DNA from: Acidobacteriota bacterium
Lineage (GTDB): Bacteria > Acidobacteriota > Terriglobia > Bryobacterales > Bryobacteraceae
Reading direction: 5' to 3'
DNA length: 64,000 nucleotides
Assembly (NCBI GenBank): GCA_003223115.1
Contig: QHXW01000028.1
Span: forward strand, 1 to 64,000
The notes beneath the pieces were generated by a model. That model made no database searches and was not told the origin of the DNA. It saw only the letters and a program-made list of their open reading frames with translations. The position numbers and the translations under genes were made by a program. Every line of letters starts with the position of its first letter. The first letter of the stretch is position 1. Below, piece after piece: positions 56,127-61,735 of the stretch.

Positions 56127-56510
56127 ATGACCAAGAACGAACTCGAAAAATACCGGAATGTGCTGGAAGCGAAACAGACCGAGTTATCCGCCAACCTGCG
56201 GAATCGGGGAGACATCGCCATCGAGAAGACGGCCGATGCCATCGACGAGGTGCAATTGGCGGGCGAGCGTGAGCTCGCGATTCGCAACCTGGACCGTGAC
56301 TCCAATCTCCTGCGGAAGGTGCGCGCCGCTTTGGGGCGGATTTCGGATGGCTCCTACGGCACGTGTTTGCACTGCGATGAGGAGATCAGCCCAAAGCGTC
56401 TCACTGCAGTACCCTGGACGCCCTATTGTATTAAGTGCCAGGAAGCTGCCGATCGCCACGAATTCGAGAGCTCGGACATGCCGGACCAGTTTCTGGCCGA
56501 CGCAGCGTAA
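56127..56510 (+). CDS. DksA/TraR-type zinc-finger protein
   Basis: 127 residues: coiled-coil N-terminal half and a C4 zinc finger, CLHCDEEI and CIKCQE, at about residues 90-115. DksA-type proteins insert into the secondary channel of RNA polymerase and modulate initiation, often with ppGpp. The acidic tip of the coiled coil is not exactly DxxDxA, so it may be a DksA-like paralogue. ATG 56127 follows GGAAGGAG. A strong terminator follows at 56534-56562. Confidence 0.87.
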   Translation: MTKNELEKYRNVLEAKQTELSANLRNRGDIAIEKTADAIDEVQLAGERELAIRNLDRDSNLLRKVRAALGRISDGSYGTCLHCDEEISPKRLTAVPWTPYCIKCQEAADRHEFESSDMPDQFLADAA

Positions 56511-56533
56511 CCTGTATCTCCTTCAAATCCGGA

Positions 56534-56562
56534 CGGGCGCGAATTCATTTCGCGCCCGTTTT
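56534..56562 (+). terminator. Rho-independent terminator of the dksA-type gene
   Basis: Perfect 10-bp stem (CGGGCGCGAA / TTCGCGCCCG) with a 5-base loop, followed by four T (56559-56562). The group II intron begins five bases later. Confidence 0.9.
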
Positions 56563-56566
56563 GCTT

Positions 56567-57215
56567 GTGTGCCGAGCATGTTCGACGGCTCGGGGGTGAA
56601 AGTCCCCTTGACAACCTGATGGAGGTGAATTCATAGCGAAGCGCAAGGGCGCTCCAGCGACGGAGGGTCTGAAAGAAGCGTGGAGCAAACGTACGAGCCG
56701 ATGGACCAGAACCGGATCTGAAGGCATACGGTGCCGGGCAAGTGGGCCAGTGACCATCCATCAAGGGCATCGCGAATTCGTGACTGAAGGCGTCGCAAGG
56801 GGCCTTGATTCCAGCAGAAGTCAGCCATGCCTCCGGCGTGCCGTGTTGAACAGCCTGTGACTTCGACCGCAGCCGACTACCGGCTTCCCGCGCCGCAGTT
56901 TTTGGGGAGACGGCCGATGTTGGAAATAAACGGCTGGACTGGAAGTCACAGACCAGCAGAGTCCGGTAACGGATGAAGGCCCGAACCGTGATCGTGGGTA
57001 GTAGTGCGCGACTGTCGTGCAGGCCATGCGCCAGCCAATCCGCTGCGGCGGAGCTTACCAGGCGCGGATAGGGTGAAGCCCGAAAGAACCCGGGAGCTTC
57101 TCACGGAACCCCCGGCCCTCACCGGCTCAAGTCACGGAACCGCAGTATGCGGACCCGCATGTACGGTACGGTGGTGTGGGAGGGGAGGAGCTGTCAGGCT
57201 TCCCCCTATCCCGAT
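56567..57215 (+). mobile_element. ORF-less group II intron remnant
   Basis: Starts GTGTGCCGAGCATG and ends in CCCTATCCCGAT, both typical of bacterial group II introns. Inside are the AGCGAAGCGCAAGGGCG and GGTCTGAAAGAAGCG stretches of domain I, and a domain V-like hairpin around GTATGCGG/GCATGTAC near 57136-57170 followed by domain VI. No reverse-transcriptase frame exists. The AGC of the domain V triad appears as AAC, so splicing is doubtful. Insertion right behind a terminator is the known habit of class C introns. A 149-bp repeat sits within it. Confidence 0.8.
56813..56961 (+). repeat. Structured dispersed repeat, copy 1 (about 149 bp)
   Basis: Homologous to 61508-61651 in the same orientation with about 93 percent identity by eye. 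It contains CTGTGACTTC and its inverted copy GAAGTCACAG about 85 bp apart, with a further CAGCCG/CGGCTG pair inside, so it can form a long hairpin. Lies within the group II intron remnant. Confidence 0.82.
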
Positions 57216-57283
57216 TTGCAGGGCGGAGTTTGCCGAAGATCGTGTCGAACTTTCGACAGGAATCGTCGAAACCGGTCGGAGTT

Positions 57284-61503: not shown

Positions 61504-61507
61504 GGCA

Positions 61508-61651
61508 GGAGTCAGCCATGCCTCCGGCGGAGCCGGATTGAACAGCCTGTGACTTCGACCGCAGCCGACTACCGGCTTCCCGCGCCGCAGTTTTTGGGGA
61601 GTCGGCCGATGTTGGAAATAAACGGCTTGACTGGAAGTCACAGACCAGGAG
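61508..61651 (+). repeat. Structured dispersed repeat, copy 2 (about 144 bp)
   Basis: Second copy of 56813-56961, starting 5 bp after the stop codon of the NHL protein. The same inverted CTGTGACTTC/GAAGTCACAG arms are present. It may act as a transcript end or stabilising hairpin. Confidence 0.82.
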
Positions 61652-61735
61652 ATCAGGAGCCGGACGGCACAAGACTCCGTCGAACCGTCTCTCTGTCTGG
61701 CGGTTTGAAATGCGTGCCGGCGGCGCTCCGGGATC

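Follow-up and report, generated by a model that had tools for sequence, protein, structure and literature searches.

How does a group II intron that lacks a reverse transcriptase (RT) gene come to lie directly behind the terminator of a dksA-like gene, and is it a solitary relic or one member of a lineage? The question is raised by a locus near the end of the window, that is, the whole stretch of 64,000 nucleotides from an Acidobacteriota contig that was analysed here. A preliminary description made from the letters alone had proposed a 649-bp RT-less class C intron with a degenerate domain V, still movable if a helper acted in trans.

The element (copy A) occupies positions 56567-57215 on the plus strand, exactly 649 nt, begins with GTGTGCC and ends with CCCGAT. 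The borders were set by aligning sister copies with different flanks and are consistent with the dksA-terminator-pgeF arrangement in two genomes of the same genus that lack the intron. The end consensus GTGYG...AY is satisfied (GTGTG...GAT), and an RT gene is absent from 56567-57215, as had been stated. Its nature as a decayed group II intron follows from alignment to three sister copies of the same genome (B, C and D) and to relatives, from relaxed Rfam matches, and from copy B, which exceeds every cut-off. The position behind the dksA terminator was likewise borne out. The dksA-like gene (56127-56510, plus strand; Pfam zf-dskA_traR, 1e-10) is followed by an intrinsic terminator with a 13-bp stem and a T-run (56531-56562, plus strand), the presumed insertion target, which is retained in intron-less relatives. 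Its hairpin (56531-56561) folds with -23.5 kcal/mol, a value equalled by none of 200 shuffles, and only a few T-rich tail bases separate it from the intron start. Since dksA, the terminator and pgeF are adjacent with no intron between them in the two genomes of the same genus, the intron is most simply read as a gain in the present lineage.

The assignment to class C, also made earlier, was confirmed from several sides. A full-length relative of the same D1-D3 type (locus L155, G111:C5) carries an RT of 461 aa, whose best solved relative is the GsI-IIC RT (E 1e-147) and which matches NCBIfam group_II_RT_mat. A terminator-like hairpin stands 5' of 11/11 intron copies checked, and directly 5' of all four copies A-D of the own genome. 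The CGC catalytic triad can be read directly in D5 of copy B and of relatives, for example in ACCGCCGTATGCGG. Taken together, the RT of the relative, the terminator sites and the triad place the lineage in class C, and on these sequence characters the window element is a class C group II intron. Class C introns were also met in direct tandem, at L071:1501-2394 (G083:C41) and L155:245-2206 (G111:C5), where the second intron begins at the 3' end of the first, as if the D6 hairpin were the target. Loci in which D5/D6 directly precede D1 appear to fit successive insertion better than circularly permuted introns (PMC8637638).

Copy A is heavily damaged. No Rfam match was found in the window at the gathering cut-offs, which are 32 bits for RF02001 (D1-D4) and 40 bits for RF00029 (D5/D6), and under relaxed settings copy A reached 31.8 and 24.7 bits, respectively. 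The D1-D4 match is a core remnant at 56651-56739 on the plus strand. Intact relatives score 65-130 bits (RF02001) and 41-48 bits (RF00029), and copy B, on the minus strand at C89:36322-35583, reaches 121.7 bits for D1-D4 and 48.4 bits for D5/D6, so the weak score of copy A reflects decay and not absence of an intron. The search with domain V models that had been suggested as a check was thus answered in two ways, as copy A fails the curated cut-off while sister copies pass it. Aligned with copy B, copy A has two internal deletion sites in the D1-D3 region (56755-56770, plus strand), 11 nt at 56755/56756 and 66 nt at 56769/56770, which together remove about 77 nt between D1 and D3; D4 has suffered small losses as well. 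Domain V (57138-57175, plus strand) is broken by a 5-nt tandem duplication, TACGG at 57162-57166 and again at 57167-57171, and by a C-to-A change that makes a mismatch. When D5 was tested by folding, copy A misfolded and copy B formed a proper D5 and D6, with a UA bulge near the 3' end of the latter. Domain VI of copy A with its bulge near the 3' end, and the 3' end of the intron, were placed at 57176-57215 (plus strand) by relaxed Rfam matching and folding. The degeneracy seen earlier in domain V is therefore real and includes loss of the fold, and copy A is almost certainly a dead intron; with both D5 and the D1-D3 region damaged, a helper in trans, on which its movement had been supposed to depend, could hardly move it. 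Weak relaxed matches of Rfam to Termite-leu, che1, tpke11 and a trypanosome snoRNA were dismissed as terminator-like or chance.

Two things had been overlooked: an unrelated genomic repeat of 146 bp nested inside copy A, and the fact that the RT-less state is shared by a conserved lineage, some of whose intact members occur in this genome and others in different genera, and is not a local accident. The repeat, which is foreign to the intron, makes up most of 56814-56960 (plus strand), at the D3/D4 junction (RF01998 region). It has about 40 copies in the genome and its site is empty in relatives, those of other genera showing an uninterrupted GCAGAAGTCAGCAGAGGGC at the insertion point. Copy B bears the same repeat at the same point, while copies A and B lie behind different terminators and beside different genes; both thus descend from one repeat-bearing RT-less intron, and the RT-less form probably moved after the loss of its RT. 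Movement of the intron is the simplest reading of this pair, with gene conversion as its rival. The first seven bases 3' of copy A (57216-57222, TTGCAGG) also follow copy B, whose site is unrelated in other respects; this may be due to chance, target preference or carry-over. As for the repeat itself, further copies were noticed at 61505-61652 and at C118:66992-67133 and 67131-67258. It usually lies inside heptad-like CAGGAGN arrays and contains an internal inverted repeat (CTGTGACTTC/GAAGTCACAG). In other genera there are a few full but diverged copies, besides shorter stretches that match the first ~43 or the last ~48 bases of the repeat.

To follow the lineage, copy B without the 146-bp repeat was used as the homology query. 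Full-length RT-less relatives of 613-624 nt, 79-84% identical to this query, were found in other genera, several of them exceeding the Rfam cut-offs; identity to copy B itself is 81-87% for copies in other genera, and nine RT-less introns share 77-95% pairwise identity. The D4-specific part occurs in 12/237 genomes and 11/76 genera of the family; the match is near full length in eight genera and only partial in the remaining ones. When the GTDB genome collection was scanned with a pattern, 11 loci emerged, all in Acidobacteriota, adding L129 and L133, which are absent from the listed loci of the family search, and the RT-less D4 motif had no match in the viral collection. Judged by these comparisons, the novelty is that the RT-less class C introns form a conserved lineage, of which at least eight genera of the family have near-full-length members. 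The terminators upstream of the RT-less copies differ in sequence, and so do the neighbouring genes where these are readable. Two genomes of the same genus (G035 and G094) yielded no family member, either with copy B minus the repeat or with its D4 part as query. The dksA region is only 71-73% identical between genomes of the genus, so that copies in other genera are closer than this region; together with the absence of the family from the genus this points to horizontal gain of the RT-less intron.

The feature that unites the RT-less copies is a D4 module of about 180 nt (in copy A 56975-57132, plus strand), conserved across genera and delimited by alignments, conservation, folding and comparison with the RT gene start. 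It is common to all RT-less copies, has the same ends in each, and is absent from RT-bearing introns, in which its position is that of the start of the RT gene. At a constant offset the module aligns with the first ~140 nt of the RT gene in several RT-bearing introns, with scores mostly of 20-26 against shuffle maxima of 14-19; the match is marginal for L155 and absent for L156 and L084. The module thus probably descends from the 5' end of an RT gene, most of which was removed by one deletion. In its middle part conservation equals that of the ribozyme core (mean identity 0.89-0.94, flanks 0.69-0.79). In the predicted fold 97.6% of the pair cells are kept, two-sided changes occur in only two pairs, and the covariation score exceeds that of all 500 shuffles, from which a conserved fold can be predicted with moderate confidence. 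A small conserved peptide was considered and rejected, as alignment by eye showed its frames interrupted in different copies. By analogy with class C introns, whose D4a is the high-affinity maturase-binding arm (PMC10190682), it is plausible that the module recruits a maturase in trans.

From these observations a history can be proposed, and we consider it likely that copy A is what survives of a class C intron that was non-autonomous and mobilised in trans. Most of the RT gene would first have been lost from domain IV of an ancestral class C intron, leaving the structured remnant of about 180 nt; the RT/maturases of related full-length introns would then have spliced the RT-less RNA and carried it to new terminators, and copy A would have inserted behind the dksA terminator and later decayed in domain V and D1-D3. 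Here we infer the mobilisation in trans, the horizontal spread and the retention of D4 for maturase binding. The low number of RT-less copies, 1-3 per genome, counts against mobilisation in trans. The search for a class C RT in the own draft assembly, also suggested beforehand, recovered broken pieces but no intact RT of this type, the best having 223 aa with a stop and 187 aa without. The RT genes of copies C (C494) and D (C476) are broken, and such broken class C RT genes and intron pieces are numerous in the genome (L037 on C494, L038 on C476, L022-L036), some with inserted repeats or foreign pieces. Elsewhere, no RT of class C type was found in the draft genomes G129 and G053, the only RT in G069 is distant and contains a stop, larger RT pieces occur in G083 and G108, and the RT of G028 is open but distant (47% identical). 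Repeated introns often break draft assemblies, and since all of this concerns drafts, a missing helper RT is weak evidence.

In the D1-D3 tree, based on short alignments of about 285 columns, the RT-less copies are scattered and at least six changes of state are required; a single RT-less clade was rejected (log-likelihood 62 lower, p-AU 7e-5). Copies A and B fall among RT-bearing introns, L071 joins the intron that lies in tandem with it (95.9%), and L133 and L129 fall with RT-bearing types; in the 3' part the D6 of L133 is that of the RT-bearing type L158. A common D4 module on scattered D1-D3 parts means that parts were exchanged or that D4 was introduced into several backbones. We tentatively suggest, as a possibility still open to considerable doubt, that one RT-less D4 entered several class C backbones and that D1-D3, and in one case D6, were exchanged with RT-bearing introns. 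A non-autonomous lineage of this kind would last, spread horizontally and keep matching its local helpers.

The scattered backbones also bear on the other explanations. Were each RT-less copy an independent dead remnant of a local RT deletion that never moved again, D1-D3 parts that do not form one clade would be expected, and copy A and parts of the copies in G028 and G116 are indeed clearly decayed. Yet the copies share one D4 module with the same ends, and these modules resemble one another far more than they resemble any RT gene, which argues for a single deletion; several copies are Rfam-intact, and the nested repeat of A and B at different sites already disfavours such a history, which we regard as unlikely. 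Recombination or gene conversion among old terminator-site introns could have spread D4 and the 146-bp repeat with no RNA-based movement at all. This would suit the mosaic, one D4 module in several D1-D3 backbones, and could explain the repeat shared by A and B, but genomes of the same genus have no intron at the dksA site and sites differ between genera, so insertion did occur and conversion accounts for only a part; as a full explanation it appears improbable.

That the element was kept as a host RNA, for instance a regulatory RNA at the dksA 3' end, might be thought of on account of the conserved gene directly upstream on the same strand and of the D4 module, a conserved structured RNA in the sister copies. 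Little read-through is to be expected behind a terminator, however, nothing is inserted at the dksA site of same-genus genomes, and copy A is accumulating deletions, which leaves this explanation very improbable. Mobilisation in trans followed by decay remains the preferred reading.

Among known systems, the class C introns B.h.I1, GsI-IIC and the Eubacterium rectale IIC retroelement (PMC10190682) have the same insertion at terminator hairpins and the same D5/D6 and D1-D4 type. The present lineage differs from them in having no RT gene and, in its place in D4, the module of about 180 nt, and the window copy is dead. The RT-less TeI3 introns of Thermosynechococcus elongatus, which are spliced and moved in trans by the RTs of related introns, resemble it in a single common RT gene deletion with a retained remnant and a structured D4 (PMC2882425). 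However, they are not targeted to terminators and number 17 copies in one genome (PMC2882425), whereas the present lineage is of class C, has 1-3 copies per genome in at least eight genera and varied D1-D3 parts, and its mobility is a reading of sequence and distribution. Clostridium tetani C.te.I1 (PMC3919590, cited in PMC4424553) is likewise an RT-less bacterial group II intron in a genome with no related RT, but it interrupts a coding gene and is spliced at alternative 3' sites, whereas the present introns stand behind terminators. In the open-licence literature no publication on an RT-less class C lineage was found.

In a review, RT-less group II introns of bacteria are regarded as rare, immobile, capable of splicing only and not persistent for long (PMC4424553). 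The exchange of backbones suggested above, if true, would contradict the view of such introns as rare, immobile and short-lived. The window copy is only a dead representative of the RT-less lineage. Conserved in at least eight genera, the lineage itself would give class C introns a natural non-autonomous partner, and it would allow testing which features of D4 a class C maturase needs for its action in trans.
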